Assembly: GCF_027812955.1 (NCBI RefSeq)
Contig: NZ_JAPYZV010000001.1
Span: 547,769 to 611,768, forward strand
Reading direction: 5' to 3'
DNA length: 64,000 nt
Source of the DNA: Pedococcus sp. 5OH_020
Lineage (GTDB): Bacteria > Actinomycetota > Actinomycetes > Actinomycetales > Dermatophilaceae
In this document: positions 42,593 to 60,755 of the stretch, piece by piece
Numbering within the stretch: the first letter of the stretch is position 1
Layout: each line of letters starts with the position of its first letter
Position numbers and translations under genes: made by a program
Notes under the pieces: generated by a model
The model's input: only the letters and a program-made list of their open reading frames with translations
Databases searched by the model: none
Told to the model about the DNA's origin: nothing

Positions 42593-45500
42593 TCAGCAAC
42601 GGCGCTGGGCCTCCGAGGCCGTCTGGTCCGGCGATGCCACTTGGACTGGTATCGCGGCTCCCTGGCGAAGCAGATGCCCGCGGCCCGGCACCGGACGCGC
42701 AGCCGGGGCCAGCCGCAGCCCGAACAGCTCTGCGTCACCGGCGGTCCGTGGACCTAGCAGGATGCCGGTGCGATGCCGGCTCAGGTCGACCGCCAACCCG
42801 CGATACTGAGTCGCCATCCTGCTGGGATCTGCCCCGCAGATGACGACGCCGTGGTGCGCATCCACCAGCCTGGCCATCTCCTGCAGTGCCGGCTCGACCG
42901 GACTGTCCACCACGTCGTGGGCCAGGTCCACCACCACAGCCAAGGAGCTCACCCGGCGGCGGAGGTCGACGAGTGGCTCCGGCTGGTCGGGATGGGACCA
43001 CAGCGCCACCCGTGGGTCGTCGCGCAGCCTGTCCAAGGCACCGGGTCGGCCGGCGACGACCGCCAGCGGGTGCCCTTGCTGCAACAGGCCACGGGCCAGC
43101 ACCAGCAACGTGGTCGACACCCCACTGCCCGCGGCCCCGCACACCAGCCAACGCCGACCGTCGTCGACCAGCGACAGTCCGACCGGGTCACCACTGTCGC
43201 CGCCGACCCCTGCGAGAACCACGCCCGCCCGCCGGTGCGTCGACAGGCTGGTCTCGCTGACGTGGTCGGGAAGGTCGACCATCCTGAACGCCGTGGCGTA
43301 TGCAGGCGTCACGGGTGACGTGGGAGCGGTGCCCGCTCCGATGGTCCCTCCGACGAGTGTCGCGGTGGTCGTCGGCGTGGGTTTCGGCGTGGATGTCGGG
43401 GTGGGTGTTGCGAGCTGGACCTCCGTGCCGTCGAGCAGGAGTCCCCGGCCGGGTGGCTGACGACGCGGAACCCTGGAAGGGGCCAGGCCGGCGAGGATGG
43501 CATCGGTCGGGTCGGCCAGACGGAGCAGCACCCTGCGCGAGAGTACCGAGGCGATCGGGCCGAGCAGGAGTGACCTGTCACCAGCGACCATTGCGCGCAC
43601 GCCCACTGCCTCACCCTCGCGCAGGAGAGCGGTCAGCCTTCCCACGAGGGTCGGCTGAGCCTCTTCGAGATGGTGGCTGAGCAGCTGCCAGTCGTCGATC
43701 AGGACGAGCATGGGCGGACCCGCGTCCGAGCGCGGGACCGGGTGGTCGGCCTGCCGCGGGGCCAGCGAGCGGCGTGGACTCCTGGACAGCCGTCCTCGGC
43801 GCCCGGCGACCTCCTCGGCGAGTCGTCCCAGGAAGCGCTCGAGCCGGGCGATGTCGGCGGAGTCGACGTGCGTCCCACACTGCGGCAGTTCCGTGAGGGC
43901 CGCCAAGGAACCGCTGCTGACCGCGTGCAGATGCAGCTGCGTTGCATCGAGCCTCGCCGAGAACGCCTGTGCCGTGGTCAGCAGGGCCGTCGAGCGGCCG
44001 CTCCCGCTCGACCCTATGAGCCCCCAGTGTCCGGGCAGCCGCAGGTCGACCACCAGGGGCAGCTGCTTCTGTCGTTCCGGATAGTCGGCCAGCCCCACTG
44101 AGGCCGTGAGATCGCCGCCCTCGGTGGGTGGCAGAGAGTACCAGCGCACGTCCTCCGGCAGGACAGGAAGCCACGCGGGGCGGCTGCTCGTGGCCGCGAG
44201 CTGCGCTGCCGCCCCCCTTACTGCCGTGACGATCTCGCCGAGCTCGCTGCCCTCGTCGCTCGCCGAGGGCAGGGATGAGAGGACGGGGTCGCCGAACGTC
44301 ACCGTGCGAACGTTGATGCCGTCGAGCCGGCGTGCCGGCTGCCCGCCCACGTGGGCGGCGTGGAACAACGTCAGGCCGCCGTCACCCGTGCGGGCGAACC
44401 CGCGCCCGGGAGTGTCCTGCGCCAGGCCGGCCGCGTCGGGAGCGTCGATGACGTCGGACGAGTCGGCCGCGTCCCTGACGCGCAGCGCGACGCGAAGGTT
44501 CATGTTCGCCCTGATGTCCCAGGTGACCACCCCGGCCGGACGCTGCGTCGCCAGGACGAGGTGGACGCCGAGCGAGCGACCCAGGGAGGCGACGCGCACC
44601 ATACCGTCGACGAAGGAGGGGAGCTCCTCGGCGAGTGCCCTGAACTCGTCCACGACGACGACCAGCCTCGCCAGTGGAGCCGCGGCACCGTGCGGGCTTC
44701 CCTGGTAGGCAAGGAAGTCCGTCACCTCGGCACCTGCGAGGATCCGCTCCCGCCGCCGGAGCTCCGAGCGCAAGGACGTCAAGGCACGCTCCGCGAGGTG
44801 CTCGTCGAGGTCGGTGACGACTCCGGCGGTGTGCGGCAACACTGCGCAGTCTCGGAAGGCAGCACCTCCCTTGTAGTCCACCAGGACGAACGACAGGTGC
44901 TCCGGCCGGTTGTGAAGGGCCAGAGAGGCCACCAGCGTCCGCAACAGCTCGGACTTGCCGGATCCCGTCGTCCCCGCCACCAGGACGTGCGGCCCGTCCG
45001 CAGCCAGGTCCAGCCACCACGTGCCGTCGACAGTGAGGCCGACCGGTACGCGGGTGGCGTGTGGTCGCGCTTCCCAGCCGGCCGCCACGGATCTGGAGCC
45101 CGGCCGCTGACCCAGGAGCTGGCCCAGTGCGACAGAGGCGACCAAGCCCGCGCCGGTGCGGGCGGCGGCCGTGGTGTCGCGCAGCGGCGCCAGCGCCCGG
45201 CTCAACCTGTCGGACCACCAGTCGCCGGCGGCGTCGAAGCCCTCCAGCACCTCAGGTTCGCGGCCGGCCCCCACCAGCGTCGGATGCTCGGACTGCGTTA
45301 CGTCGAGCACTGCTGCGCACTCCGTCGGAAGCAAGGCGCCCGCCTGGTCCAGCGCGATGGTGCATACCCCTACCGCCAGTCCCTTCCGGAGGACGACAGG
45401 CAGGCCTGGGAGACGTCGTAGTGCGGCAGCGCCGTCCAGCACGAGGACCGTCCAGGGCCCGCCCCAGGGCTGCGTGGGTCCGGGACTGGCCTGCGTCCGC

Positions 45501-46945
45501 CCCCGGACAACCTCGGCGAGCCGGCCGATGGTGGACCGGGCGACGGCTTCGTCCCAGTCCAGCACGGCCGCGGTGCCAGACCGCCGAGCTCCGTTCGGGC
45601 CTCGTTGATGAGGCAGCCGTTGGAGCCACTCCCAGCGCTGCTGAGTCCCACTCTCGGCGCCCACGACGACGAAGTCGACCTCGGTGGGAGGGTGCAGGGT
45701 AGCAAGCTGGCCGAGGAGCAGGTGAGCCACACCGGCCACTCGGCGACGATCGCCGCAGATGCCCAGCACTCCCACGGCGGCGAGGGGTATGACGCAGGGC
45801 ACTCTTCCCATGAGCACGTGGTCGGCGCTATGCCCTTCGGCTGGCGCCAGCAGCCGAACCGGGGAGGCTCGGGTGCAGAGCCCGACGCTCACGGCGAGGG
45901 CGTCATCGTCACCTGCTCCACGCTCCCACAACCGGGGCGACGGCCCAGTCGCGATCTCGAGCAGCTCAGCAGCATCGGGATAGGCGTGTCGTAGCGCTGC
46001 GGCCGACTGAGCCGCGGTCGCTCGAGCGCTTGCCATCGCCGCGTCGTACGCCCGTCGATGCTCGGCCAGCTCCGCGGCATAGCGGCGTCGAGACCCCCAT
46101 CGGTCACTCACCGCAGTCCCGCCCATCATGAGCGGCGTCATCAGCGCGAAGGCCATCATCGCGGGGCTGACGGCGAAGGCCATCACGGCGGCCACCGGGA
46201 GGGGAAGGAGTATGGGCAGCCAGGGCAACCGCACGGGTTGCGGCGCCCTGGGTGGGCTGGGGAGAGCGACGGAGAGCGCCGGGGGAGCGGATGGCAGGCG
46301 TGGTCGGCGGTTCACTCCTCGCGTCCCGTCACCCCGCTCGACCGTGGGGGCCGGCAGCGCATGCGGTAGGCGCAGGACGAGCATGGTGTCGCCCAGGGTG
46401 ATGGGAGCTTCGGCCTCCAGGCGGCAGGGGCGTGAGTCCACCGGCTCGCCGTCCAGGCGCGTCCCGTTGAGCGAGCCGAGGTCTCGAACCGTGACACCGT
46501 CGGCGGTGACCACGACCTCGGCATGGAGCCGAGACAGTCTCGCGTCGGCGAGACACAGGTCGGCCTCCCGGGACCGTCCGATGGTGTACCGACCGCTGAC
46601 CATCCAGAGCACGTGACCAGCGTCCGGACCATGAGTGACCGCGAGCGCCACTGGCGAGGGCCGTTGGGGCTGCTGCTGCTCCGTCCGCCGCCCTGACGCG
46701 AGCGCCACGGCGGCGCCGTCGAGCAGCGGCGCAGACCCTGGACGAGTGAGAGGTCCAACCGCCTGCCCGCCGACCCAGATCGTCCGGTCGGGGGAGTCCG
46801 GAAGGCCCAGGTGTCGGCTCAGGGCATCGGCGAGCTCCTGGGTGGTCGTGCCCTCCGGCGCTTCCACCTCCACCTCGGTGACGGTTGTGGAGGGCTCGGC
46901 GGCGGTTGTCGGGTGCTCGGTGACGACGGACAGGCGAAGCAGCAC
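42593..46945 (-). CDS. FHA-FtsK/SpoIIIE multidomain ATPase (EssC/EccC-like)
   Basis: A 1450-aa protein. Residues ~1-85 are ubiquitin-like/variable. An FHA domain spans ~105-185 (GRYTIGRSREADLCLADARL, LGSLNGTRLDG). Two membrane helices lie at ~243-290, and three FtsK/SpoIIIE-type ATPase domains follow. The first is canonical, with Walker A GTTGSGKS near 657 and Walker B LVVVVDEFRALAE. The second (GSSGSGRST, ~975) and third (GAAGSGVST, ~1268) lack the P-loop Lys. This is the layout of type VII secretion ATPases, where domain 1 is the motor and the others bind substrate. No WXG100, EccB/D or EsaA gene is adjacent. Confidence 0.88.
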   Translation of the reverse strand: MLLRLSVVTEHPTTAAEPSTTVTEVEVEAPEGTTTQELADALSRHLGLPDSPDRTIWVGGQAVGPLTRPGSAPLLDGAAVALASGRRTEQQQPQRPSPVALAVTHGPDAGHVLWMVSGRYTIGRSREADLCLADARLSRLHAEVVVTADGVTVRDLGSLNGTRLDGEPVDSRPCRLEAEAPITLGDTMLVLRLPHALPAPTVERGDGTRGVNRRPRLPSAPPALSVALPSPPRAPQPVRLPWLPILLPLPVAAVMAFAVSPAMMAFALMTPLMMGGTAVSDRWGSRRRYAAELAEHRRAYDAAMASARATAAQSAAALRHAYPDAAELLEIATGPSPRLWERGAGDDDALAVSVGLCTRASPVRLLAPAEGHSADHVLMGRVPCVIPLAAVGVLGICGDRRRVAGVAHLLLGQLATLHPPTEVDFVVVGAESGTQQRWEWLQRLPHQRGPNGARRSGTAAVLDWDEAVARSTIGRLAEVVRGRTQASPGPTQPWGGPWTVLVLDGAAALRRLPGLPVVLRKGLAVGVCTIALDQAGALLPTECAAVLDVTQSEHPTLVGAGREPEVLEGFDAAGDWWSDRLSRALAPLRDTTAAARTGAGLVASVALGQLLGQRPGSRSVAAGWEARPHATRVPVGLTVDGTWWLDLAADGPHVLVAGTTGSGKSELLRTLVASLALHNRPEHLSFVLVDYKGGAAFRDCAVLPHTAGVVTDLDEHLAERALTSLRSELRRRERILAGAEVTDFLAYQGSPHGAAAPLARLVVVVDEFRALAEELPSFVDGMVRVASLGRSLGVHLVLATQRPAGVVTWDIRANMNLRVALRVRDAADSSDVIDAPDAAGLAQDTPGRGFARTGDGGLTLFHAAHVGGQPARRLDGINVRTVTFGDPVLSSLPSASDEGSELGEIVTAVRGAAAQLAATSSRPAWLPVLPEDVRWYSLPPTEGGDLTASVGLADYPERQKQLPLVVDLRLPGHWGLIGSSGSGRSTALLTTAQAFSARLDATQLHLHAVSSGSLAALTELPQCGTHVDSADIARLERFLGRLAEEVAGRRGRLSRSPRRSLAPRQADHPVPRSDAGPPMLVLIDDWQLLSHHLEEAQPTLVGRLTALLREGEAVGVRAMVAGDRSLLLGPIASVLSRRVLLRLADPTDAILAGLAPSRVPRRQPPGRGLLLDGTEVQLATPTPTSTPKPTPTTTATLVGGTIGAGTAPTSPVTPAYATAFRMVDLPDHVSETSLSTHRRAGVVLAGVGGDSGDPVGLSLVDDGRRWLVCGAAGSGVSTTLLVLARGLLQQGHPLAVVAGRPGALDRLRDDPRVALWSHPDQPEPLVDLRRRVSSLAVVVDLAHDVVDSPVEPALQEMARLVDAHHGVVICGADPSRMATQYRGLAVDLSRHRTGILLGPRTAGDAELFGLRLAPAARPVPGRGHLLRQGAAIPVQVASPDQTASEAQRRC

Positions 46946-47740
46946 GGAGGAACGCTAGGGGCGCGGAGCCTGGCTGTGCCGGTTGTCCACTGGTCTCGGG
47001 GTGCCAGGACTCCTCCCGGCCCCGTCCAGTGATTCGACGCAAAGTTAAGTGAACCGAAGGTAACGGGGGAACCTAGCCGCGGAGTGCGTCGGGATGGCAG
47101 GGTGATCGTGCTACCAGGGGGGTGGGCGCATGACTGCAGTGGCGACGGTGGAGTCCGAGGTTCGGGAGCTCATTCGCCGCTCGGGTCTCGATCCGGCGAA
47201 GGACGGTCGAGAGCTCGACCGGCTGGTGCGCGATGCTGTGGCGGACTACGAGGAGCGCTCCCTGCACGGGGGACTTCCGGTCCTGAGCGACGTGGAGGAC
47301 GCCGTCAAGTCGGTAGTCGACGCCGTAGCGGGGTTCGGTCCGCTGCAGCGGTACTTCGACGACCCGACCGTCGAGGAGATCTGGATCAACGAGCCGACGA
47401 AGGTGTTCGTCGCCCGTGCAGGCGTGGCAGAGCTCACGACGACGATCCTGACCGCCGACGAGGTACGGGATCTGGTGGAGCGGATGCTCAAGTCCAGCGG
47501 CCGGCGGGTAGACCTGTCCAGCCCCTTCGTCGATGCCGTGCTTCCGGACGGCTCGCGGCTGCACGTCGTCATCCCGGACATCACCCGCACGCACTGGTCC
47601 GTCAACGTCCGCAAGTTCGTCGTCAAGGCTTCGCATCTCGAGGACCTGGTACGGCTCGGGACGTTGACGCCCGCCTCGGCCGCCTTCCTCAGCGCAGCCG
47701 TCGCGGCCGGACTCAACATCCTCGTCGCGGGCGGCACCCA

Positions 47741-47750
47741 AGCCGGCAAG
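47741..47750. repeat. Left attachment site (attL core) of the integrative element
   Basis: AGCCGGCAAG here and AGCGGGCAAG at 52377-52386 match at 9 of 10 positions; the shared core GGCAAG (47745-47750) is the GK codon pair of the cpaF P-loop. Crossover must fall in or next to this core because cpaF is in frame across the two outer ends. Confidence 0.75.
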
Positions 47751-47770
47751 CCGACGAATCGTCAATGCAA

Positions 47771-47790
47771 CCCCATCTGTTGGGATGGGG
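47771..47790. repeat. Inverted repeat just inside the left end
   Basis: CCCCATC (47771-47777) and GATGGGG (47784-47790) form a 7-bp stem with a 6-nt loop, 21 bp from the attL core. It could be a recombinase or directionality-factor binding arm, or a short hairpin insulating the cargo gene from cpaF transcription. Confidence 0.4.
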
Positions 47791-47820
47791 TGAACACGAG
47801 AAAATGTCGTCACCCTGGGA

Positions 47821-47826
47821 CATACT
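47821..47826 (+). promoter_or_regulatory. Possible leaderless -10 element for the SIR2 gene
   Basis: CATACT ends 6 nt before the GTG at 47833, a CANNNT variant of the leaderless -10 pattern. It overlaps the end of the chimeric cpaF frame, so read-through from cpaF is the alternative source of transcript. Confidence 0.3.
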
Positions 47827-47832
47827 GACGCG

Positions 47833-49512
47833 GTGGTAGATGTCATCAGACGCAGGCGGGCCTTTCGTATGCCCGAGGAGCTCGTTGCAGCCGTCTCGGA
47901 GCGACGAGTGATCCCCTTCGTTGGAGCGGGCTTCTCGCTGACCTTGGGGCTCCCAGACTGGGGTCAGTTGCTCGCCAATCTGTGCAAGGAGCTCGACGTG
48001 GGTCTGAGCTTCGAGGAAATCAATGACTATGCGAACAGCGACTTCCTGCAAATTGCGGAGTACCTGTACATCAAATCCGATCGACGCATTGGTCCCCTGC
48101 GCCATGTGATCGAGCAAGGCATGGTTGGAAGGGACATTAGGCCTGCGACGTCAACGCCTCACGTAGAACTGGCAAACCTAGGTGCCCCTCAGATATATAC
48201 AACGAACTACGATGACATGCTTGAAAAAACGTACCGCGCGCTGGGACTGTCATTCTCAGTTGTTGCGCTACCAAAGGACGTTGCTCAGGTAAATACGCGA
48301 GACACGCAAATAATTAAATATCACGGTGACTTGCGTCATGAGGGAACGCTGGTTCTAACAGAGTCCGCTTATTACAAACGACTTGACTTTGAGTCGCCGA
48401 TGGATCTTAAATTCCGATCAGATCTGTTGGGTAGATCGGTCCTGTACATGGGGTACTCGTTCCGCGACATCAATATCCGGCTCATTTGGTTCAAGTTGAT
48501 GCAGATGATGCAGGACATTCCTGAATCGGATAGGCGGCCCTCGTACATCCTTCGCCTAGGGCCCAATCCTGTCCTCGACGAACTCTATAAGGACGTCGGT
48601 CTGCGGACCATCGTTCTCGACCCGGCGTCGAAGTTCAACGATCACGACCGGCGCGAGTTGCTGGGGGACTTTCTGGGGGAGCTCGCTACGCAATCCAGCC
48701 AGGCAAGCCCCCCTTCGTCCAGAGGTAAGCAGTTCGCATCTGCGGGCTTCATTCAAGAAATTGCGTTGCGCATTGGCGCAGACACTAACCCTGCGGATGA
48801 GTTCCTCCAATTTGACCTGCCCGGCTCAAATTCGGTGACGATGGCTATCCGGCGTATGGTGGTGAAGGATGTGCCCCAAGATCTTGAGGACGCGTATCGG
48901 GAAGCTTTGTATGACGGCATGGCGCACGTGACTTTCCTGCCGCCTCCATACGTGATCCCTCTTGGTCGAAAGATAAAGCAGTTCGGGCCTCACCAGAACG
49001 TTACGGAGTTCTTCCTGCGTATGCTGCGTGGCGGCAGCGAGCAGGTGCATAGTGTGCGTCCGATCTTAGGGACAGCCAGCCTCCCTTGGCAGACGATCTG
49101 GGGTGCGGAGGTCTCTGAGGCCGCAGTCCGGCGACTGGTGCGCGAAGCGAGGCGTGAACTGGCATGGACGAAAGCGGGAAACGCCGACGATGACCTCGTG
49201 TATTGCGTTGATCTGCTGAAGCGCGTCGTGTCCGGCCAAATCTTCGGTCCTACGCCTGACTCAAAGCTGATGGCGCAAGCTGCTTCGATCATCTCTGAGT
49301 CGGAACAGATCTATCCGGCAATGACATCGTATGAGCCGCCAGCCGACGGTGGTCCTTTGTTGGATGGGGCCCTGGCTCAGGTTCAAGCTCGTCGTGAGGC
49401 GATCGAGGCGGGAGAGATCAAAAAGGATCCGGAGTACGAAGGGACACGCGGGGTCCGTTTCGCGTTTGACCTTGAAGCCCCGGACGATGGAGAGGATGAG
49501 AGTACTGGCTAG
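47833..49512 (+). CDS. SIR2-family protein, predicted NADase defence effector
   Basis: A 559-aa protein. The N-terminal SIR2-like domain (~25-245) keeps GAGFS (31-35), TTNYD with N125, KYHGD with H164 and the late GYSFRDINIR, i.e. the NAD-binding and catalytic Asn/His set of SIR2 NADases. The C-terminal ~310 residues (from ~255, after a Ser/Gln-rich linker) match nothing I recognise and may sense infection. SIR2 proteins of this kind deplete NAD on phage infection. Gene interior is locally AT-rich (for example around 48190-48330), unlike neighbours. GTG start at 47833. Confidence 0.87.
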   Translation: MVDVIRRRRAFRMPEELVAAVSERRVIPFVGAGFSLTLGLPDWGQLLANLCKELDVGLSFEEINDYANSDFLQIAEYLYIKSDRRIGPLRHVIEQGMVGRDIRPATSTPHVELANLGAPQIYTTNYDDMLEKTYRALGLSFSVVALPKDVAQVNTRDTQIIKYHGDLRHEGTLVLTESAYYKRLDFESPMDLKFRSDLLGRSVLYMGYSFRDINIRLIWFKLMQMMQDIPESDRRPSYILRLGPNPVLDELYKDVGLRTIVLDPASKFNDHDRRELLGDFLGELATQSSQASPPSSRGKQFASAGFIQEIALRIGADTNPADEFLQFDLPGSNSVTMAIRRMVVKDVPQDLEDAYREALYDGMAHVTFLPPPYVIPLGRKIKQFGPHQNVTEFFLRMLRGGSEQVHSVRPILGTASLPWQTIWGAEVSEAAVRRLVREARRELAWTKAGNADDDLVYCVDLLKRVVSGQIFGPTPDSKLMAQAASIISESEQIYPAMTSYEPPADGGPLLDGALAQVQARREAIEAGEIKKDPEYEGTRGVRFAFDLEAPDDGEDESTG

Positions 49513-49638
49513 GGTCGGCCAGTTGCTTGGTGTCGTGCGTGGCGGCTCTTGACTTGAATTAGCAACACAACTCGTCGGGCTGCTGGACAGGGGTGGGCGT
49601 CGTCCCATAGCGGCCGTCGTCGGGCTGCGGGGGAGCGT

Positions 49639-49673
49639 GTCAAGGGCGCGCAGCGGCGTAGCGGACCCTTGAC
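49639..49673. repeat. Inverted repeat, candidate rolling-circle origin or operator
   Basis: GTCAAGGG (49639-49646) and CCCTTGAC (49666-49673) are perfect 8-bp arms around 19 nt. The arms are less GC-rich than the surrounding DNA and lie ~350 bp before the Rep gene. Confidence 0.5.
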
Positions 49674-49952
49674 GGCGCGGAGGAGCGGGCCAGAGAGTGG
49701 CGCGGCGGGACGGCGACCGCATAGGTGACCAAACGGCTGATGTTGCTGCCTGGGTATGCGCTGCTGTGATGTGCGTGCGGCGCCTCTGACCGGGGGCGAA
49801 GACAAACACAACAAAACGATGCCCTTGCCCGAGGGCGCTAAGCGAGCCAGGAACGACGAGAGAGCGTTCACGCAGACATCGCAGGGTGACGGGACCACGA
49901 CTGACTGCTCATCCGCAGGGGCACAGGTCGCCCTGATCAACTAACTCACACA

Positions 49953-49981
49953 GGACCGGTCGAGCCAATGGCTCCCGGTCC
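49953..49981 (+). terminator. Hairpin with short T-run inside the integrative element
   Basis: GGACCGG (49953-49959) pairs with CCGGTCC (49975-49981), and GAGCC (49962-49966) with GGCTC (49970-49974), with a TC bulge and a 3-nt loop, followed by TTTCC. It fits an intrinsic terminator for rightward transcription, or a single-strand origin-type hairpin ahead of Rep. Confidence 0.55.
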
Positions 49982-50025
49982 TTTCCGCGTACCGGGGGCT
50001 CCGTTCTCGTTGCTGTGGAGTCATC

Positions 50026-50796
50026 GTGTCGTCGTCGGTCCGTGTGCCGCCTACCTTCTCGGGATGGTCGTTGTCGTTATGTGCCGCTGCCGGGGAGGCG
50101 GGGGGCTGCTTCGTTTCCTCGCGCCAGGAGCGGAGGGGTGGGGGGAGGCGCGGGTCGGCAGCTGATCCTGCGCGGGCCCGATTAGAGGCGGGTCGTCGCG
50201 CCCGTTCGCGGATGCGCCGGTACTGCGCGGCCAACCGGCTAAACCGGCTGGGAACGCTGACGTATCGCGGTGAGGGGTGTCACGACCCAAGGCAGGCGCG
50301 GCGCGATGTGGGTCTGTTCTTCCGAGGGCTGCGGCAGTCGCTTGGTGGGGAGTCGTTCCCGTACGTGTGGGTGCCCGAGTGGCACAAGTCCGGTCATGGG
50401 CTGCATCTGCATTTCGCGGTCGGCAAGTTCGTGCCGCGTGGGCTCATTGAGGAGGCGTGGGGTCACGGCTTCGTGCACATCAAGTTGCTGGGCGATCTCC
50501 CGGCGGGTTCCGGCTCGTTTGCCGAGGCTCGCAAGGCTGCGGGGTACCTGTCGAAGTACGTGGCGAAGTCGTTCGATGATGACCGTGATGGGGTGCTGCG
50601 TCCTGCGGGGCTGCATCGCTTCGATGTGGCGCAGGGCTTCACGCCGCGCACGATCCTGATTCGGGGTGCTACCCGTGCGGAGGTCTTGGAGCATGCGGCG
50701 GGGGCCATGGGCGGGCCACCAGATGTGTTCTGGTCGTCGGCTGAGGTTGAGGGCTGGCAGGGTGCGGCTGCGGTGTGGGTGCAATGGCGCGGCTGA
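50026..50796 (+). CDS. HUH-type rolling-circle replication initiator (Rep)
   Basis: A ~256-aa protein; the start is uncertain (GTG 50026 used; the conserved part begins near 50212, MRRYCAANRLNRLGTLTYRG). It shows the HUH motif as HLHF (~127-130, within KSGHGLHLHFAVGKF) and a downstream GYLSKYVAKSF with Tyr 174 and Tyr 178 as nucleophile candidates. HUH Rep proteins nick one strand at an origin and start rolling-circle replication. It lies in the element next to the recombinase, so it should copy the excised circle. The gene overlaps the next one by 13 bases. Confidence 0.78.
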   Translation: MSSSVRVPPTFSGWSLSLCAAAGEAGGCFVSSRQERRGGGRRGSAADPARARLEAGRRARSRMRRYCAANRLNRLGTLTYRGEGCHDPRQARRDVGLFFRGLRQSLGGESFPYVWVPEWHKSGHGLHLHFAVGKFVPRGLIEEAWGHGFVHIKLLGDLPAGSGSFAEARKAAGYLSKYVAKSFDDDRDGVLRPAGLHRFDVAQGFTPRTILIRGATRAEVLEHAAGAMGGPPDVFWSSAEVEGWQGAAAVWVQWRG

Positions 50797-51077
50797 CCGG
50801 AGAGGAGTTGGCGGCGTGGGTCGCTGCGTCCTGTGCTCGGTCGGGGGTACCGGTGTTCGTTACCGATTCCTCGACGCTGAGCCAGGTGGGCAGGCTGGTG
50901 GGCGGTGGTCGGGGAGGGCCCGCACGGCGCGCCAGCGCCGAGGACCCGCCGCGACGGCGCTCACAACCGCCAGTGGATCTCGACGCGGGACGGGTCGATG
51001 CTGCGGGCTCCCATCGTGCCGGGACGGATGATCACGTGGTCCACGAGGGCTCGGACGATGGCGGCCTGTTGGCCTAG
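50784..51077 (+). CDS. Small hypothetical protein, 3' end antisense to the recombinase gene
   Basis: A 97-aa protein from ATG 50784: MARLTGEELAAWVAASCARS then GVPVFVTDSSTLSQVGRLVG, a compact helical/strand start, and a polar acidic tail. Proteins with this start occur beside Rep and serine recombinase genes in other small actinobacterial elements, as far as I recall. Codons from 50961 on are the complement of the recombinase 3' end (117-bp convergent overlap), so the tail may be constrained by that gene. Function unknown. Confidence 0.55.
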   Translation: MARLTGEELAAWVAASCARSGVPVFVTDSSTLSQVGRLVGGGRGGPARRASAEDPPRRRSQPPVDLDAGRVDAAGSHRAGTDDHVVHEGSDDGGLLA

Positions 51078-52358
51078 CGGCATGTCGCCGCTGCCCCATG
51101 CGGCGCGTAGGGCGCTGGCGTTTCCCATGTGGCCGGCGATCACGGTCGAGCCGGCCTGCTGGACCTGTCTGCGGCGGTTCGCGATGAGTCGCGCGTCGAG
51201 GGTTTGTCGGGCGGCTCGCCACTCCGGTCGGGTGAGTTCGCCTGCGGCCCACATCTCGGCCAGCTCCTCCAGCTTCGCGGCGTCGGCGGCGATGGACTCG
51301 CTCAGGGCCGCGCTGCTCTCGTCCGCCCGATGGCGTCCGTCGATTGCCGCCGCAAGTTCCGGAGTGTCGAGCCGGTACAGGATGGCATCGACGACCAGTT
51401 CCTCAACGGTTGCACTGATCATGGTTCCGCCGCAGCCCCCGAAGTCCGGTCCGGAACGGCACATGTACCGGCGACGGTTCCGGCTCTGCCCGGTGACCAT
51501 CTTCGCCCCACACCTGCCGCAGCGACAGAGACCCGAGAGCAGGTAACGGCGAGGGGTTCGGTTGGTGCGCCGCGACGGGTCACTCAGAAGCGCGAGGATC
51601 TGGCTGTGTTCCTCCTCGGTGATGATCGCGGGCCACACCGCTTTGCCGATGACCTGCCCTTGGTGCTCGCGGAGCCCGGCAATCCGTGGCGACTTCAGCA
51701 GATTCCGCAGGGTCGGCGTGCGCCATTCCTTGCCCATGACGGTTCGCACGCCGCTGTCCTGAAGCCAGGTCGTCAGGCTGGTCAGCGGCTCACCTGCTAG
51801 GAGTCGCGATGCCAGGTCGCGAATGACTGCCGCCTCGGCCTCGTCCAGGGTGACTCGATCTGCTTGGTACCCGTACGCCCGAGGTCCACCACCGGACGGC
51901 TTACCGGCTTGGGCGAGTTCCAACTGCTTGCGCTTGGTCCGGCGTGACTTGGCGTCCGACTCGTTAGCGGCCACAGCACCCATCAAGCGCGCCACAAACA
52001 GTCCGTCGCTGCTTCCCAGGTCGAACTCCCCGTGCAGGGTCACCACGTCACCGACCCCGGCTCTGGCGCAGACGTCGGCGAACTCTTCAAGTTCGATGGG
52101 CCTTCGGTGCAGCCGGTCCATGTGCCAGACCAGCACCGCATCGGCTTGCCGGTCGCGGATCGCGTCGAGCATCGCCCGGTACTGCGGACGGGTCTTGCCG
52201 TTGTAGGCCGACACGTCGTCGTCGACGAACTCGGCAACGACGGGCCATCCACGTCGCTGAGCCTCCGCTCGGCAGTCGGCGAGTTGGCGCGTGACGCCGC
52301 CCCCTTCCCCGGTGCGGTCCTGGGAGATGCGGGCGTAGATGACTGCATGCTTGGGCAT
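50961..52358 (-). CDS. Large serine recombinase (integrase)
   Basis: A 465-aa recombinase. The resolvase-type catalytic domain (~1-150) has Ser12 in IYARIS and the Arg-containing LVWHMDRLHRR. The recombinase domain follows (YGYQADRVTLDEAEAAVIRD). The zinc ribbon CRCGRCGAKMVTGQSRNRRR plus YMCRSGPDFGGCGG carries the cysteines. The C-terminus has a coiled-coil-like helix. It should catalyse attP x attB integration at the cpaF P-loop codons. The start is 22 bp from the attR core. Confidence 0.95.
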   Translation of the reverse strand: MPKHAVIYARISQDRTGEGGGVTRQLADCRAEAQRRGWPVVAEFVDDDVSAYNGKTRPQYRAMLDAIRDRQADAVLVWHMDRLHRRPIELEEFADVCARAGVGDVVTLHGEFDLGSSDGLFVARLMGAVAANESDAKSRRTKRKQLELAQAGKPSGGGPRAYGYQADRVTLDEAEAAVIRDLASRLLAGEPLTSLTTWLQDSGVRTVMGKEWRTPTLRNLLKSPRIAGLREHQGQVIGKAVWPAIITEEEHSQILALLSDPSRRTNRTPRRYLLSGLCRCGRCGAKMVTGQSRNRRRYMCRSGPDFGGCGGTMISATVEELVVDAILYRLDTPELAAAIDGRHRADESSAALSESIAADAAKLEELAEMWAAGELTRPEWRAARQTLDARLIANRRRQVQQAGSTVIAGHMGNASALRAAWGSGDMPLGQQAAIVRALVDHVIIRPGTMGARSIDPSRVEIHWRL

Positions 52359-52364
52359 GGGGGC

Positions 52365-52370
52365 AGACTA
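52365..52370 (-). promoter_or_regulatory. Predicted leaderless -10 element of the recombinase, next to attR
   Basis: On the minus strand TAGTCT ends 6 nt before the ATG at 52358. The attR core begins 11 bp further upstream, so the -35 region lies in or beyond the core and differs between integrated and excised states. Confidence 0.5.
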
Positions 52371-52376
52371 GCAATT

Positions 52377-52386
52377 AGCGGGCAAG
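52377..52386. repeat. Right attachment site (attR core)
   Basis: AGCGGGCAAG, 9 of 10 bases identical to attL (47741-47750). After it the interrupted cpaF frame continues with ACC ACC CTG CTG AAC (TTLLN). Confidence 0.75.
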
Positions 52387-52479
52387 ACCACCCTGCTGAA
52401 CTGCATTGCCTCGGCCATCCCGCCGCGCGAACGCGTCGTGACGTGCGAAGAGGTGTTCGAGCTACCAAGGGCGAAATAA
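52381..52479 (+). pseudogene. cpaF: Internal fragment of the second cpaF with a second breakpoint
   Basis: Starting with the GK codons, the frame reads TTLLNCIASAIPPRERVVTC and EEVFEL, the normal CpaF sequence after the P-loop. It then leaves the family after EL, near 52463, and stops at TAA 52477-52479. The Asp box, His box and C-terminal domain are absent here and not found anywhere to the right in the window. So the gene has a second disruption ~80 bp from the element. Confidence 0.88.
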
Positions 52480-52920
52480 ACACAGATGTGCCTCGACGGG
52501 CTTAGAGCTGTGTTGTGGGATCTGTCGGCAGCGGCAGCGTAAGGCAGACGGCACTAGTAGATCCAGAACTACCCCCGCAGCGTCGGTCATCGTTGGTGAC
52601 GTTGGCTGAGGGGCTGTGGCCTGCAAAAACGGCTCGCGAGGCGTCGGTCAGCGTTGGCACCCGCTGGTGGTCTTGCGGACTTTTTGCGGACTGCTCAGGA
52701 GTCCGGCTCCAAGACGGGGCCATCGTCCCGAGGTAAGCCGCTCGTCGGGACACAGTCGGTGGCTCCGCCCAGCGGTCGTTCGGATCCAGGTCTCCAACCG
52801 AGGAGGCCATTCGCTCCGCCAAATTCCCGGCGGTTGCCTTCGGCCCGTGGCCGGCGCAGTCATGCGTGGAGGCTCAGAGTTTTCGTCGTGACGGAGCGAT
52901 ATGTCCTATCTGGCGTCAGC
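52480..52920. other. Non-coding stretch before hsdR with direct repeats
   Basis: About 440 bp. A 17-bp unit beginning GCGTCGGTCA occurs at 52580-52596 and 52641-52657 with one mismatch. Two closely spaced TTGCGGACT copies lie near 52673-52691, and CGGACT/AGTCCG arms enclose 7 nt just after them. No convincing gene; it may hold the left end of the second accessory segment and the hsd promoter. Confidence 0.5.
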
Positions 52921-55704
52921 ATGCTGGCTATCGTGACTCCCGTGGGGGAACTCGACGGCGCGGCGAGGCTCGCAGCTGAGCAGCGGGCCCGGGTGGTCAT
53001 CGACCGCCAGCTGACCAGCGCGGGCTGGGCGGTCCAGGACAAGAAGGACCTGAACCTGTTCGCCTCCGACGGCGTGGCCTGCCGGGAGGTGGTCATGAAG
53101 GCCGGCCACGGTCGGGCCGACTACGTCCTTTACGTGGACAAGAAGGCCGTGGGCGTCATCGAGGCCAAGCCGGAGGGCACCGCTCTTTCCGGGGTCGAGT
53201 GGCAGTCAGGCATGTACGCCGAGGGCCTTCCGACGGACGTGCGGCTCCGCGCGCTGACCGTCGACGGACGTCTCCCATTCGTGTTCGAGGCAAGCGGCAC
53301 CGAGACCCACTTCACCAACGGCTACGACCCCGACGCCCGAGCACGACGACTGTTCAACTTCCCCAGGCCGGGCACGCTGGCCAAGATCCTCCGCGACGCG
53401 GAAGCCGACCCAGACCAGCCGACGTGGCGCGCCAGAGTCCGCCATCTTCCCGAGCTCGACACCCGGCCGCTGCGCCCCGCTCAGATCACCGCCATCGGCG
53501 GCATCGAGAACAGCCTCATCAACCAGCAGTTCGACCGGTCGCTGGTGCAGATGGCCACCGGCGCCGGCAAGACCTTCACCGCCGTGACCACCGCCTACCG
53601 GCTGCTGCGATTCGGCGGGTTCCAACGGATCCTGTTCCTCGTCGACCGCAACAACCTCGCCGAGCAGACTCTCGCCGAGTTCCAGAACTACCGGACGCCT
53701 GGCGACGGCCGGCGGTTCACCGAGATCTACGGCGTCGACAAGCTGTCCTCCGCCGGCATGCTCCAGTCCTCCAGCGTCGTCGTTTCGACCATCCAGCGCG
53801 TCTTCAAGGCCTTGGAGAACGAAGAGGTCACCACTGGCGATGACCCCGGCCTCGATGACTACGTCCCCGACGCACCGGTAGCGGTCGCGTACAACCCCGC
53901 GATGCCGCCGGAGACGTTCGACCTAGTGATCGTCGACGAGGCGCACCGCTCCATCTACGGGGTGTGGCGCGGCGTCCTGGAGTACTTCGACGCCCACGTC
54001 GTCGGCCTCACCGCCACCCCCGGCAAACAGACCTTCGCGTTCTTCCGCCAGAACCTCGTCTCGGAGTACACCTACCCCCAGTCCGTCGCCGACCGGGTCA
54101 ACGTCGACTTCGACCTCTACCGGATCCGCACGAACATCTCAGAGAAGGGCGCCACGATCGACGCGGGCCTGTTCGTGCCCAAGGTCGACCGCCGCACCCG
54201 GAAGGAGCGCCTGGAGCAGCTCGAGGAGGACTACGAGTACACCCACAAGCAGCTCGACCGGGCCGTCACCGCGAAATCCCAGATCCGCCTCGTCCTGGAG
54301 ACGTTCCGGGATCGGCTGTTCACCGAGATCTTCCCCGGCCGCTCGACCGTGCCGAAGACGCTGATCTTCGCCAAGGACGACGCGCACGCGGAAGAGATCG
54401 TCACCACCGTCCGAGAGGTGTTCGGCAAGGGGAACGACTTCGCCGCCAAGATCACCTACGCCGCCCGAGACCCCAAGGGGCAACTGCAGGCCTTCCGCAC
54501 GTCACCCTCCCTGCGGATCGCGGTCACCGTCGACATGATCGCCACCGGCACGGACGTCAAACCCCTCGAGTGCGTCTTCTTCATGCGCGACGTCCGCTCC
54601 GCGCAGTACTTCGAGCAGATGAAGGGCCGCGGAGCGCGCACCATCGCACCGGCCGACTTCCAGTCCGTGACCCCTGACGCCACCGCCAAGACCCGGTTCG
54701 TCATCGTCGACGCCGTCGGGGTTACCGAACATGACTTCGTCGAACCACCCCTTAACCGAGACAAGGCGGTCCCGCTCAAGAAGCTGCTCGACAAGGCGGC
54801 AGCACTGTCCCTGACCGAGGACGAGACCGCCACCCTCGCCTCCCGCCTGGCCAAGCTGGAGCTGGAGCTCACCCCGCAGGAGCGCGCCGAGCTCGACGAC
54901 GTGGCCGGGGCACCGGTGCGCGACATCGTCCGGGCCCTGGTCGATGCAGTCGACCCCGACACCCAGGCGCACATCGCCGAGGAGGCGACAGATCGTGAGG
55001 CCGCTATCCAGGACGTGCTCGATGAGGCGATCAAACCGCTCGCCGCCAACCCGGAGCTACGGGCGCGCATCCTCGAGCTCAGGGCGACCCACGACCGGGT
55101 CATCGACGAGGTCAACCAAGACACCCTCATCGACGCGCACGGCGTCGTCGACACCACGAGGGCCAAGTCCATCGTCGCCTCATGGACCGCCTACTTGAAG
55201 GAGCACCGCGCCGAGATCACAGCCATCCAGCTTGCCACGGAGGCCAAGGAACGGCGTCTCGCCTTCGCCGACATCCAGGAGCTCGCCGACCGGATCTCCC
55301 GGCCGCCGTACAACTGGACGCCCGATCTCATCTGGGATGCCTACGCCGCCGTCGACGTCGACCGGGTTCGCCACAGCGACCACCACACCCTGACCGACCT
55401 GGTCTCTCTGCTGCGCTATACCGTCGGAGTCGACAAGCAGCTCGTTCCTTACGCCGACCAGGTCCGGGAGCGCTACGCCGCCTGGCTCGCGCAGCAAGCA
55501 CAAGCCGGAACGACCTTCAGTCCCCTCGAAAGGTGGTGGCTCGACCGCATGGTTGGAATAATTGCATCATCCGCCGGCATCACCGCCGACGACCTCGACC
55601 AAGCACCCTTCACCGACAAGGGCGGCATCGACGGAGCCCTACGTGATCTCGGCAATCATGTCGACGACCTCCTCGATCAGCTGAACACGGAGCTTACCGC
55701 GTGA
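52921..55704 (+). CDS. hsdR: Type I restriction enzyme R subunit
   Basis: A 927-aa HsdR from ATG 52921 (MLAIVTPVGELDGAARLAAE); GTG 52942 is another possible start. A PD-(D/E)xK-type nuclease region is near residues 63-84 (GRADYVLYVDKKAVGVIEAK). Helicase motifs are MATGAGKTF (~212), VDEAHRSIYG (~338), GLTATPG, and the late EQMKGRGART. The nuclease-helicase subunit translocates and cuts unmodified DNA in complex with HsdM and HsdS. All key motifs are intact. It overlaps hsdS by 4 bases. Confidence 0.94.
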   Translation: MLAIVTPVGELDGAARLAAEQRARVVIDRQLTSAGWAVQDKKDLNLFASDGVACREVVMKAGHGRADYVLYVDKKAVGVIEAKPEGTALSGVEWQSGMYAEGLPTDVRLRALTVDGRLPFVFEASGTETHFTNGYDPDARARRLFNFPRPGTLAKILRDAEADPDQPTWRARVRHLPELDTRPLRPAQITAIGGIENSLINQQFDRSLVQMATGAGKTFTAVTTAYRLLRFGGFQRILFLVDRNNLAEQTLAEFQNYRTPGDGRRFTEIYGVDKLSSAGMLQSSSVVVSTIQRVFKALENEEVTTGDDPGLDDYVPDAPVAVAYNPAMPPETFDLVIVDEAHRSIYGVWRGVLEYFDAHVVGLTATPGKQTFAFFRQNLVSEYTYPQSVADRVNVDFDLYRIRTNISEKGATIDAGLFVPKVDRRTRKERLEQLEEDYEYTHKQLDRAVTAKSQIRLVLETFRDRLFTEIFPGRSTVPKTLIFAKDDAHAEEIVTTVREVFGKGNDFAAKITYAARDPKGQLQAFRTSPSLRIAVTVDMIATGTDVKPLECVFFMRDVRSAQYFEQMKGRGARTIAPADFQSVTPDATAKTRFVIVDAVGVTEHDFVEPPLNRDKAVPLKKLLDKAAALSLTEDETATLASRLAKLELELTPQERAELDDVAGAPVRDIVRALVDAVDPDTQAHIAEEATDREAAIQDVLDEAIKPLAANPELRARILELRATHDRVIDEVNQDTLIDAHGVVDTTRAKSIVASWTAYLKEHRAEITAIQLATEAKERRLAFADIQELADRISRPPYNWTPDLIWDAYAAVDVDRVRHSDHHTLTDLVSLLRYTVGVDKQLVPYADQVRERYAAWLAQQAQAGTTFSPLERWWLDRMVGIIASSAGITADDLDQAPFTDKGGIDGALRDLGNHVDDLLDQLNTELTA

Positions 55705-56945
55705 GGTCGTGCAGGGCCGGCTGGGAGCAGGTCCCGCTCAGTCGCGTGGCGCCGGAGGTCAAAGGCTCGATCACATGCACTCCCGGGGTCGCCTATGAGC
55801 TGTGGAGCGTTCCAGCGTTTGCGGATGGTCGCCCGGAGATCGTGGACGGCGAACAGGTCGCGAGTGCAAAGCGACCGGTTGAACCTGACGACGTCCTGAT
55901 CTGCAAGATCAATCCCCGCATCAACCGGGTCTGGCAGGTAGGCCCGGCGCGTGGGCGCCCACAAGTGGCGTCGCCCGAGTGGATTACCGTGCGTCCCGGC
56001 GCTGTCGGCAGCGTCGAGCCCGCTTACCTACGCCACTACCTCTCAAGTCCATCGTTCCGCGACTGGATCGTTGGCGAGGTTTCCGGTGTGACCGGTAGCC
56101 ACACTCGGGCGAAGCCCGCCCAAGTGCTGAGCCGGTTGATCCCGGTGCCACCCGTTCTCGAACAGCGTCGGATCGTCGACATCGTCGAAGACCACCTCTC
56201 CCGACTCGATGCCGCGGTGAGCGGGATGAGTACAGCACAACAACGCGTGGTCATGCTTCGTGCAGTCGCGTTCTCGACACTGTTGTCGAGAGGGAAGGCG
56301 TGCGAGGGATCGACCATCGTGTCGCTCGGCAGCATGTCAGACATCGGAACTGGCACTACCCCAAGTAGAGGCACGAAGGCGTTCTACGAGGGTGGAACGA
56401 TCCCTTGGATTACCAGCGGAGACCTCCATCAAGGAGTCGTGACGGATGTCAGGCAGTTCGTCACTAAGAAGGCGCTGCGTGAGACCAGCCTTCGGTTGTA
56501 TCCCAAGGGCACGCTGCTTTTGGCCATGTACGGCGAGGGCAAAACACGTGGGACGTGCGCCGAGCTTGGAGTGGAGGCAACGGTGAATCAGGCATGTGCA
56601 GCGGTTCAATTGAAGGACCAATCGACTGCGCCGTGGGTTCGTGCCGTGTTGGACGCTCAGTACGTCGGGATGCGCGGGATGGCAGCCGGCGGCGTTCAGC
56701 CGAACCTGAACCTGCGGTTGGTTCGCTCGATCGAAATTCCGATGCCCGATTTGACTACTCGTGAGCAACTGTTGGGAGAGCTCAGCGCCATTCTTGACGC
56801 CTCACGGCGCCTCGAGTCGGCCACAGCACCACTCAGATCACGCGCTGGCACGTTGCGCCGAGCGGTTTTGTCGGCCGCCTTCGCGGGCAAGCTCTCTGGG
56901 CGAAGTGCTGACGTAGAGGTCATCGAGGAGTTAGCTGGTGTTTGA
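55701..56945 (+). CDS. hsdS: Type I restriction-modification specificity subunit
   Basis: A 414-aa HsdS with two target recognition domains. The first TRD covers ~5-150. The first conserved helical region is LIPVPPVLEQRRIVDIVEDH (~152-171). The second TRD begins ~210 with IGTGTTPSRGTKAFYEGGTI and ends with IEIPMPDLTTREQLLGELSA, followed by the distal helix ending LRRAVLSAAFAGKLSG. It sets the bipartite DNA target, which cannot be predicted here. The GTG start overlaps hsdR (GTGA). Confidence 0.92.
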   Translation: MRSCRAGWEQVPLSRVAPEVKGSITCTPGVAYELWSVPAFADGRPEIVDGEQVASAKRPVEPDDVLICKINPRINRVWQVGPARGRPQVASPEWITVRPGAVGSVEPAYLRHYLSSPSFRDWIVGEVSGVTGSHTRAKPAQVLSRLIPVPPVLEQRRIVDIVEDHLSRLDAAVSGMSTAQQRVVMLRAVAFSTLLSRGKACEGSTIVSLGSMSDIGTGTTPSRGTKAFYEGGTIPWITSGDLHQGVVTDVRQFVTKKALRETSLRLYPKGTLLLAMYGEGKTRGTCAELGVEATVNQACAAVQLKDQSTAPWVRAVLDAQYVGMRGMAAGGVQPNLNLRLVRSIEIPMPDLTTREQLLGELSAILDASRRLESATAPLRSRAGTLRRAVLSAAFAGKLSGRSADVEVIEELAGV

Positions 56946-56977
56946 TTTGCGCTCCACGTCGGGTGAGCCGAGGCTCC

Positions 56978-57418
56978 ATGACTGCTGAAGGGCAGCCGCT
57001 TGTTTCGCCGGCTTCGGCGCAGCAACTATCTCCGGACAAGGATTTCGACAACATGGTCGACAACCTCTACCACCTCTACGGCGCAGGCGAAGACGAGGAA
57101 ATCTGGGAGCCGAAGACCCTCAGCGCTGACCTCATCGACCCCTCTCAGCTGATTAACGACCCCGATGACGAAGAAGGAGAGGCAAAGGGCGAGGCGATTC
57201 GCGGGGTGCGAGCTGGGACGTGGACGCCACCCTTGTTCTTGATGCACCACACCGACAATGCGCATCCGTTCGTCCTGATCGAGGGCATGCACCGCTACAC
57301 AGCGGCCCACCACGAGGGGGCCGACACCATCGGCGCATGGGTCGCTCATTCCTCCTGTGGCGTCGCAGCCACGGATCCCATTGGCGCAAACACCTCTGAC
57401 TGGCAACCGCATGAGTGA
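56978..57418 (+). CDS. ParB/sulfiredoxin-fold-like protein inserted between hsdS and hsdM
   Basis: A 146-aa protein. ATG 56978 has GAGG ~6 nt upstream; a TTG at 56942 overlapping hsdS is an alternative. The central part has the ParB N-terminal layout: SADLIDPSQLI, then a polar acidic loop, then PPLFLMHH and LIEGMHRYTAAHHEGADTIG, where GMHR corresponds to the GxHR box. No HTH domain follows, so it is a stand-alone ParB/Srx fold. Its stop overlaps hsdM by 8 bases, so it is expressed with the R-M genes. Role unknown: an anti-restriction control or nuclease/CTPase accessory is possible. Confidence 0.7.
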   Translation: MTAEGQPLVSPASAQQLSPDKDFDNMVDNLYHLYGAGEDEEIWEPKTLSADLIDPSQLINDPDDEEGEAKGEAIRGVRAGTWTPPLFLMHHTDNAHPFVLIEGMHRYTAAHHEGADTIGAWVAHSSCGVAATDPIGANTSDWQPHE

Positions 57419-58901
57419 CGCACGCAGGCTTGTGGACAAGCTGTGGTCGTACTGCGACGTGCTGCGTGACGACGGTGTGGGCGTCATCGAGTACACCGAG
57501 CAGTTGACATACCTGCTCTTCCTCAAGATGACTCATGAGCGGGCCACCCGCAGGCTCAAGCCTGAACAAATCGTGCCGGACGAGTACTCGTGGCAGCGGC
57601 TGCTCGACGCGCAGGGCGACCAACTCGAGCTCACCTACACCCGCATCCTCGTCGGGCTGGCACGCGAGCCGGGCGTGATTGGAACGATCTTCCGCAAGGC
57701 ACAGAACCGGATCCAGGACCCGGCCAAACTCAAGCGCCTTATCGTCGACCTGATCGACAAGGAGAACTGGTCGCAGTCGGGCACCGACATCAAGGGCGAC
57801 GCCTACGAGGAGCTCCTCTCCAAGGGCGCCTCAGACAAGGGGTCCGGGGCCGGGCAGTACTTCACCCCTCGTGCGCTCATCCACGCGATCGTTGACGTGA
57901 TCCGACCGACGGTGGCAGATACCGTGGTCGACCCGGCCTGCGGCACGGCCGGGTTCCTCCTCGTCGCGCACGAGCGTGCCTCCCTTGGGGCGGAGTCCAT
58001 GACCCCAACCGAGCGGGACAAGCTGCGGGACGGCTTAGTCCGCGGGTACGAGCTCGTAGACAACACTGCCCGCCTTGCCGCGATGAACCTGCTCCTGCAC
58101 GGGATGGGCACAGCGAACGGCGACTCTCTCATCGAGGTTCGCGACTCTCTCATCGCTGATCCGGGACAGCGATGGTCGGTGGTGCTGTCGAACCCGCCGT
58201 TCGGGCGCAAGTCCTCACTGACGATGGTCGGTGCTGACGGCCGTGAAGTTCGTGAGGACCGGGAGATCGAGCGACAGGACTTCGTCGCCACGACGAGCAA
58301 CAAGCAGCTCAACTTCGTCCAGCACATCATGACGATCCTCGACACCAACGGCCGTGCCGCCGTTGTCCTCCCCGACAACGTCCTCTTCGAGGGCGGCGCC
58401 GGCGAGACCATCCGCCGCAAGCTGCTGGCGGACTTCAACCTGCACACGATGCTCCGGTTGCCGACCGGGATCTTCTATGCCCAGGGCGTCAAGGCCAACG
58501 TGCTCTTCTTCGACAAGAAGGTTGCTCGCCCGGGGCAGCCCTGGACCGAGAAGCTCTGGGTCTACGACCTACGGACGAATATGCACTTCACCCTCAAGCA
58601 GAACCCGCTCCGCCGTGCCGACCTCGACGACTTCGTCGCCGCGTACCTGCCCGGAGAAGCGAGCGAGAGGACGGAGTCCGAGAGGTGGAAGGCTTTCACC
58701 TGCGACGAGATCATCGCCCGGGACAAGGCGAACCTTGATATCACCTGGCTGCGTGACGAGTCCCTCGAGGACCTGGACAACCTGCCCTCACCCGATGTGA
58801 TCGCCCGAGAGATCGTCGAGGACCTCACCGGCGCGCTGGCCGAATTCGAGGCCGTGGCTTCTGCGCTGGAGGCACAGCTGGACACGGCAGGCGAGAGGTA
58901 G
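57411..58901 (+). CDS. hsdM: Type I restriction-modification methyltransferase subunit
   Basis: A 496-aa N6-adenine methyltransferase. ATG 57411 (MSDARRLVDKLWSYCDVLRD) gives the usual start. The N-terminal helical HsdM_N domain covers ~1-130. SAM-binding motif I is DPACGTAGF (~174-182), and catalytic motif IV is NPPF (~261). The C-terminal target-contact part includes LDITWLRDESLEDLDNLPSP. It methylates the host at the HsdS target and forms the core of the restriction complex. It is the last gene of the operon. Confidence 0.94.
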   Translation: MSDARRLVDKLWSYCDVLRDDGVGVIEYTEQLTYLLFLKMTHERATRRLKPEQIVPDEYSWQRLLDAQGDQLELTYTRILVGLAREPGVIGTIFRKAQNRIQDPAKLKRLIVDLIDKENWSQSGTDIKGDAYEELLSKGASDKGSGAGQYFTPRALIHAIVDVIRPTVADTVVDPACGTAGFLLVAHERASLGAESMTPTERDKLRDGLVRGYELVDNTARLAAMNLLLHGMGTANGDSLIEVRDSLIADPGQRWSVVLSNPPFGRKSSLTMVGADGREVREDREIERQDFVATTSNKQLNFVQHIMTILDTNGRAAVVLPDNVLFEGGAGETIRRKLLADFNLHTMLRLPTGIFYAQGVKANVLFFDKKVARPGQPWTEKLWVYDLRTNMHFTLKQNPLRRADLDDFVAAYLPGEASERTESERWKAFTCDEIIARDKANLDITWLRDESLEDLDNLPSPDVIAREIVEDLTGALAEFEAVASALEAQLDTAGER

Positions 58902-60689: not shown

Positions 60690-60755
60690 CCGGGTCACGC
60701 GAGGATCGGTGCCCTGAAGAGCAGCCCGAGAGAGTTGCCCCGATCCCGCCCTGGG

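Follow-up and report, generated by a model that had tools for sequence, protein, structure and literature searches.

Recurrent insertion of mobile elements into cpaF, a putative competence-pilus gene, in Pedococcus and related Actinomycetota

Why should one motor ATPase gene be cut twice by mobile elements within a single bacterial genome, and at other codons in related genomes? The question is raised by a stretch of 64,000 nucleotides (here called the window, the whole stretch analysed) from the genome of Pedococcus sp. 5OH_020 (G000; 4.4 Mb in 32 contigs), corresponding to positions 547769-611768 of contig C11. A cpaF gene, with a T2SSE domain recognised in its fragment (Pfam), starts at 47130 and runs into LVAGGTQAGK, and its frame is taken up again by TTLLNC from 52387. 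The DNA in between, element 1, encodes a large serine recombinase (LSR1). An earlier note on the window had proposed that an integrative element with such a recombinase occupies the GK codons of a cpaF ATPase, and this is borne out by the split frame, by the Resolvase/Recombinase/Zn-ribbon protein and by the uninterrupted gene of relatives. On the whole evidence, the best reading is that mobile elements probably inactivate an actinobacterial competence pilus. The coordinates are collected in Table 1.

The 6-mer GGCAAG is present at both junctions (47745-47750 and 52381-52386), as the earlier note had seen; by itself this would mean little, and homologous junctions share only the AA within it (47748-47749 and 52384-52385). 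The distance of 22 bp from the recombinase gene to the right junction was read correctly (start codon at 52358, GGGCAAG at 52380). From AA to AA, element 1 measures 4,636 bp. LSR1 contains the domains Resolvase PF00239, Recombinase PF07508 and Zn-ribbon PF13408 (Pfam), and this domain set, the position of the gene beside an att junction and the uninterrupted site in relatives fit an integrative element of the large serine recombinase type. As had been anticipated, relatives carry an uninterrupted P-loop: cpaF was matched in all 10 other genomes of the genus, and the P-loop is unbroken in 10/10, with G002 cut further on. Relatives of LSR1 abut the P-loop codon in nine genomes, G000 included. 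The others are G177 (77% identity), Phycicoccus HDW14 (G159; 74%), Kocuria dechangensis (55%), G275 (55%), a metagenome-assembled genome (MAG) of Nocardioides (54%), G342 (51%), Modestobacter altitudinis, where the gene is broken into frames, and an actinomycetote MAG, where it is ended by the contig edge. Because the ten genus relatives are uninterrupted and LSR1 relatives lie at the same codon in eight further genomes, the junctions of element 1 stand above chance. The nine right P-loop junctions read ...AAG ACx ACx and the seven left ones ...GGCAA followed by G or C, with AA common to all. Judged from such common sequences, the crossover catalysed by the recombinases would fall at AA in element 1 and at CT in element 2, which is described below.

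An element in the P-loop leaves the cpaF ATPase without its Walker A motif, as shown by anatomy and comparison, and the ATPase function is probably lost. Both outer pieces still look constrained. No stops occur in them over residues 4-206 and 236-405. Against nine intact relatives, the 5' piece has a mean ratio of non-synonymous to synonymous differences (pN/pS) of 0.194, where intact copies range over 0.151-0.230; for the 3' piece the value is 0.104, the highest of the set, with intact copies at 0.054-0.089. The insertions look recent, and any relaxation looks mild at most.

The gene does resume in frame with TTLLNC as first described, but a second cut follows at EEVFEL, 78 bp after the first; the gene stops at 52463, and its remainder lies about 74 kb away, beyond the window. 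With the cpaF of locus L023 (408 codons) as query, residues 4-214 and 206-234 were matched in the window and residues 234-406 about 74 kb downstream. The one insertion recorded by the earlier note is element 1; a second island, with its own recombinase LSR2, was missed at codon 234. This element 2 ends near C11:674174 (L054:4175), beside LSR2, which adjoins the far cpaF piece (residues 234-406) and is 37% identical to LSR1. A single element spanning both cuts is ruled out by two recombinases of this low identity at two junctions. The second insertion alone is found in G002, a single-contig genome, where cpaF runs to codon 234 and is followed by 70.7 kb, an 85% identical LSR2 and the remaining cpaF. 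A 54% identical relative of LSR2 lies at codon 234 in G068.

Between the codon-234 islands of G000 and G002, the recombinase region, a Prim-Pol/helix-turn-helix protein (56%), a DUF4192 protein (63%) and two smaller open reading frames (ORFs) were matched; since little was matched, the cargo differs. The 66 ORFs of the G000 island were also compared with the 40 kb surrounding cpaF in G007, where the gene is intact, and none of them matched. Genes that look like housekeeping or sugar-use genes (CTP transferase, UbiA, a solute-binding protein and melibiase) are also present in the island (L052, L053); they suggest accretion, and part of the 74 kb may have been added later. Type I restriction genes are located just inside two inserts: HsdR, HsdS and HsdM in the window, and HsdM in G068 (L121:5377-7380). 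Additionally, an LSR2 relative at L070 (G107:C90:11973-13373) abuts another gene, presumably ComM/magnesium-chelatase, a known target of large serine recombinases.

Are these cuts peculiar to one genome? Among 186 genomes of the family searched, the 5' piece was matched in 165 and the 3' piece in 163 (union about 167). Both places were listed in 139 genomes, adjacent in 131, split by 4.1-79 kb in seven and on two contigs in one, a count that covers the stretch between residues 207 and 235 only. Eight of the 22 genomes with one place listed are split on one contig (G014, G017, G085, G133, G161, G163, G172 and G175). As a result, cpaF is split on one contig, its halves 4-79 kb apart, in 15 of about 167 genomes. 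Six more, counted apart from the 15, are cut mid-contig with one half found or the halves on different contigs (G068, G074, G083, which lies outside the 167, G084, G121 and G131). Several genomes were left out of the 15. In G054, G061, G180 and G166 the cuts coincide with the ends of contigs or the pieces are on different ones; G036 and G026 have a weak match for the 3' piece or a draft contig; in G140 and G129 the only lesion is a frameshift; and G025, G097 and G183 were taken as intact from long open frames, their 3' place falling below the matches listed.

The cuts in the 21 genomes lie near residues 80-97, 111, 142, 165, 207, 231-234 and 294-308, about seven sites, and cpaF of G074 ends near 268-276. 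Outside the family, the gene is cut three times in Modestobacter (about 90, 207 and 234) and once in Actinotalea, near 300. In 13 of the 15 split genomes a serine or tyrosine integrase was located at the split. In addition to LSR1 and LSR2, serine recombinases are present at the P-loop cut in G109 and G110, at about 88 in G017 and G121, and at about 295 in G163, G175, G172 and Actinotalea. Tyrosine integrases lie at the cut in G085 (111), G161 (165) and Modestobacter (about 90), and about 370 bp from the cut in G133 (about 88). The recombinases of G109 and G110 fall outside the LSR1 group in the tree; separate lineages therefore arrived at the P-loop codon, although the long branches of G110, G172 and G017 make their placement unsure. 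Recurrent independent insertion into cpaF by divergent integrases was thus observed, with recombinases at the junctions, uninterrupted relatives and convergence of integrase lineages on one gene.

Two further features of these inserts can be seen. In Modestobacter altitudinis (L018, L119, L120) the tyrosine integrase stands at the first cpaF cut and a NACHT gene in the second element. In G014, the island inserted near codon 142 of cpaF carries a gene for a DprA/Smf-type protein (PF02481; L107:2325-3176) beside an ORF without a Pfam match; DprA/Smf is a transformation-linked family, here found within an element that breaks a pilus gene.

Which pilus does the gene serve? Downstream of the far cpaF piece lie tadB (T2SSF), a TadE-like gene and a Tad-family gene, the first two with open frames, and a divergent FtsK/SpoIIIE-FHA match stands beside cpaF in all ten genus relatives. 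In Micrococcus luteus, the FtsK/SpoIIIE gene Mlut_07490 (reverse) adjoins Mlut_07500 (forward), which is tadA1/CpaF and the first tad-1 gene; according to the same reports, deletion of any tad gene except tadB abolishes transformation, and a point mutation in Mlut_07490 lowers it at least 1000-fold (PMC4322843, PMC8467076). Competence in Actinomycetota is described as little known (PMC8467076). The likeness to tad-1 is one of gene order, namely a divergent FtsK/SpoIIIE gene followed by tadA/cpaF, tadB, tadC and TadE/G-like genes; tad-1 is functional in M. luteus, whereas the locus of the window genome is cut. On the basis of this gene order and of family, the split cpaF is called the putative motor ATPase of a tad-1-type competence pilus, a link to competence that the earlier note had not made.

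Insertions of this kind have precedents. According to Durrant et al. (2022, PMC10083194), DNA competence genes are strongly over-represented among the targets of large serine recombinases. The elements described there resemble the present ones in domain set, recombinase beside att and insertion into a coding gene, and their short core has a putative counterpart in the AA found here; the present elements differ in that they hit a Tad-type pilus ATPase, at several positions. None of the words cpaF, T2SS, secretion and ATPase appears in the main text of that paper. Mobile elements were described in comK, comYC, comFA and comM (Croucher et al. 2016, PMC4774983) and in comEC (PMC4774983, PMC11472951); two comFA sites have integrases 34.1% identical, and comM insertions often carry defence systems (PMC4774983, PMC11472951). 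Convergent insertion by divergent integrases is treated as additional evidence by Croucher et al. (PMC4774983). Coding insertions, conserved across genera and made by divergent integrases, are common to those elements and to ours; there they fall in a transformation gene, here in a putative one. The genera named in those reports are Firmicutes and Proteobacteria (PMC4774983, PMC11472951), whereas here the host is actinomycetote, the gene hit encodes a tad-1-type motor ATPase and the insertions lie stacked within a single gene. No element targeting cpaF/tadA was found among the papers listed from the open-access literature searched.

The following course of events may be proposed. LSR1 would recombine attP with an attB that has the AA of the P-loop lysine codon at its centre, a chemistry expected from its family; a second element with a distant recombinase sits at codon 234 of the same gene. 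If cpaF has a role in competence, elements within it would abolish DNA uptake while integrated, and abolished uptake would protect them from replacement by transforming DNA, following the argument of Croucher et al. (PMC4774983). Selection for inactivation through such self-protection would account for the convergence of several serine and tyrosine integrase lineages on cpaF, and for the sparing of its paralogue.

The alternative that survives best is a neutral one, in which integrases simply use conserved DNA in an ATPase gene that the cell can spare; the pilus would be lost incidentally, and the gene would be hit again and again because this is tolerated, not because it brings an advantage. 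We hold it to be unlikely, yet deserving of serious attention. Indeed cpaF seems dispensable, with remnants only in G103 and G134, frameshifts in G129 and G140, and no match at the threshold used in some family genomes, and the LSR1 clade is found at other sites as well. A control is provided, however, by an uninterrupted paralogous cpaF in the window, which belongs to another Tad locus and has a similar P-loop motif. Searched in the same 186 genomes, the paralogue gave 90 rows at >=55% identity in 85 genomes, and 87 of the 90 copies listed are essentially full length, two being partial at contig ends and one partial and undecided (G181). Compared with the 15/167 of split cpaF, this gives a Fisher p of 0.0016 (0.013 if G181 is counted). 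The unit of the control is the gene copy, with 90 copies from 85 of the 186 genomes, and low-scoring pieces of split paralogue copies could be missed among the matches listed. Moreover, about seven positions are hit by unrelated integrases, six of them not the P-loop.

The two limits of this control weigh against the reading that mobile elements disarm a competence pilus, and so do the observations that follow. Integrases could also be drawn to the conserved codons of a gene that is dispensable, with nothing gained. The upstream neighbour of cpaF in Kocuria dechangensis (L013) is not FtsK. The two splits without an integrase belong here: none was found beside the G014 cut, and none among the G090 insert proteins tested, where a protein resembling a DDE transposase (rve; E 2.4e-5, a match that misses the Pfam cut-off) makes the insert look transposon-like. 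In a recombinase tree of 37 rows, the LSR1 clade (10 full-length rows, support 98/96) has 6/10 members at the cpaF P-loop and 4/10 elsewhere (Nostocoides Soil756, Kocuria polaris, Actinotalea soli and Cellulomonas phragmiteti); cpaF is cut elsewhere in Actinotalea soli and uninterrupted in the other three. Finally, a neighbouring set of recombinases abuts the ends of another gene with the same AA at the junction.

Strict specificity of LSR1 for cpaF is refuted by these members of its own clade, and P-loop targeting is therefore preferential: LSR1 prefers the P-loop codon, and its clade is not confined there. The conditions that the earlier note set for refuting its reading turned out largely in its favour, with uninterrupted relatives and nine genomes with an LSR1 relative at the P-loop codon; against it stand the four of ten clade members found elsewhere. 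The P-loop label changes seven times on the 37-row tree (at least six forced by starred branches); 107/500 shuffles are as low, so that clustering is not clear and the site was reached, or left, repeatedly. The gene ends abutted by the neighbouring set are taken by us to be 13E12/HNH genes, Pfam giving no family for five fragments. phiRv1 is an element in a 13E12/HNH repeat gene, and this set, with its junction AA, would resemble the phiRv1 type, a reading that Pfam did not confirm; the target of phiRv1-type elements differs from cpaF. G000 has another LSR1 relative near a contig end (C10:960-1706, L002; 57% over residues 2-249), and the adjacent gene end is presumably 13E12/HNH too. A Nostocoides homologue (L012, 74%) lies directly after an HNH-like gene, at a junction resembling an inverted cpaF left arm.

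Another possibility is a regulatory switch, in which an element excises under some condition, restores cpaF and so controls the pilus, for which phage insertions in comK or sigK provide precedent. The open frames of the outer cpaF pieces, the 5' pN/pS within the intact range and the open tadB and TadE-like genes downstream agree with it. However, two elements would have to leave in the window genome, and the raised pN/pS of the 3' piece suggests mild relaxation; the switch is thus considered improbable. It is hardly credible, even for an assembly in 32 contigs, that an unrelated rearrangement or a misassembly split cpaF and that the recombinase is a bystander. The junctions are in the interior of a contig, other genomes have this codon interrupted by an element with an LSR1 relative and comparable att arms, the codon-234 split recurs in single-contig G002, and homologous junctions and uninterrupted relatives rule out assembly error as well as a chance repeat.

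What, then, do the smallest elements carry? Those of the LSR1 type are mini-elements with varying cargo. The REP_ORF2-G2P gene recurs in six further P-loop elements (G177, Phycicoccus, Kocuria, Modestobacter, G275 and Nocardioides); no Rep was found among two further proteins of the G342 element scanned with Pfam. The SIR2/ThsA-like cargo of the window is likely to serve anti-phage defence. Other cargo includes an nSTAND ATPase and an FkbM methyltransferase (G177), a NACHT protein without a PADLOC match (Modestobacter), a 3'-5' exonuclease (Kocuria) and a MUG113/T5orf172 protein with a weak PADLOC match (Nocardioides). AbiTii adjoins the cut in G084, a one-sided case at the P-loop codon. A 351-aa protein of G275 gave no match, and the Phycicoccus element has no called cargo gene. 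With a defence-like gene in several of these elements, phage protection may be a payment to the host.

Two other identities were considered for element 1. An actinomycete integrative and conjugative element includes, by definition, an FtsK-like transfer protein, and none was present among the four proteins tested (SIR2, REP, LSR and a 100-aa ORF without a Pfam hit). A viral origin of LSR1 was rejected after a search of IMG/VR turned up a single weak relative (40% identity over residues 6-330).

Table 1. Features of the window around the interrupted cpaF gene
Feature	Position	Strand	Remark
Uninterrupted paralogous cpaF (GGTGSGKTTLLN type)	1634..3010	+	another Tad locus; control
FtsK/SpoIIIE protein with FHA domain	42593..46945	-	divergent from cpaF
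cpaF/tadA 5' fragment	47130..47749	+	residues 1-207 of intact relative; ends in P-loop GGTQAGK
Element 1 left junction (attL)	47748..47749	+	putative core dinucleotide AA, common to P-loop junctions; within P-loop lysine codon
Element 1	47750..52383	.	integrative, 4.64 kb
SIR2_2-domain cargo protein	47833..49512	+	559 aa; best PADLOC match ThsA (E 5.7e-28)
REP_ORF2-G2P replication-associated protein	50026..50796	+	Pfam
Large serine recombinase LSR1	50961..52358	-	465 aa; start codon 22 bp from right junction
Element 1 right junction (attR)	52384..52385	+	putative core dinucleotide AA
cpaF middle fragment	52386..52463	+	TTLLNC...EEVFEL; residues 208-234
Element 2 left junction	52462..52463	+	dinucleotide CT common to both ends
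Element 2, left part	52464..64000	.	of the ~74-kb island
Type I restriction subunit HsdR	52654..55704	+	element 2
HsdS specificity subunit	55701..56945	+	element 2
HsdM methylase	57357..58901	+	element 2

Conflict between mobile elements and transformation has been documented in several Firmicutes and Proteobacteria (PMC4774983, PMC11472951), and the present findings suggest that mobile DNA disarms natural transformation in Actinomycetota as elsewhere. There is an even chance that cpaF is a battleground across families, where at least six serine and tyrosine integrase lineages have independently come to use about seven sites, with two or three cuts in individual genomes, and where the smallest class of element is a streamlined Rep and recombinase vehicle that swaps defence genes while stopping DNA uptake. 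Candidate recombinase/attB pairs at defined codons are provided. A gene targeted by multiple integrases would flag a pilus that matters and predict isolates that are non-transformable, and the conflict hypothesis becomes testable in another phylum, the Actinomycetota.

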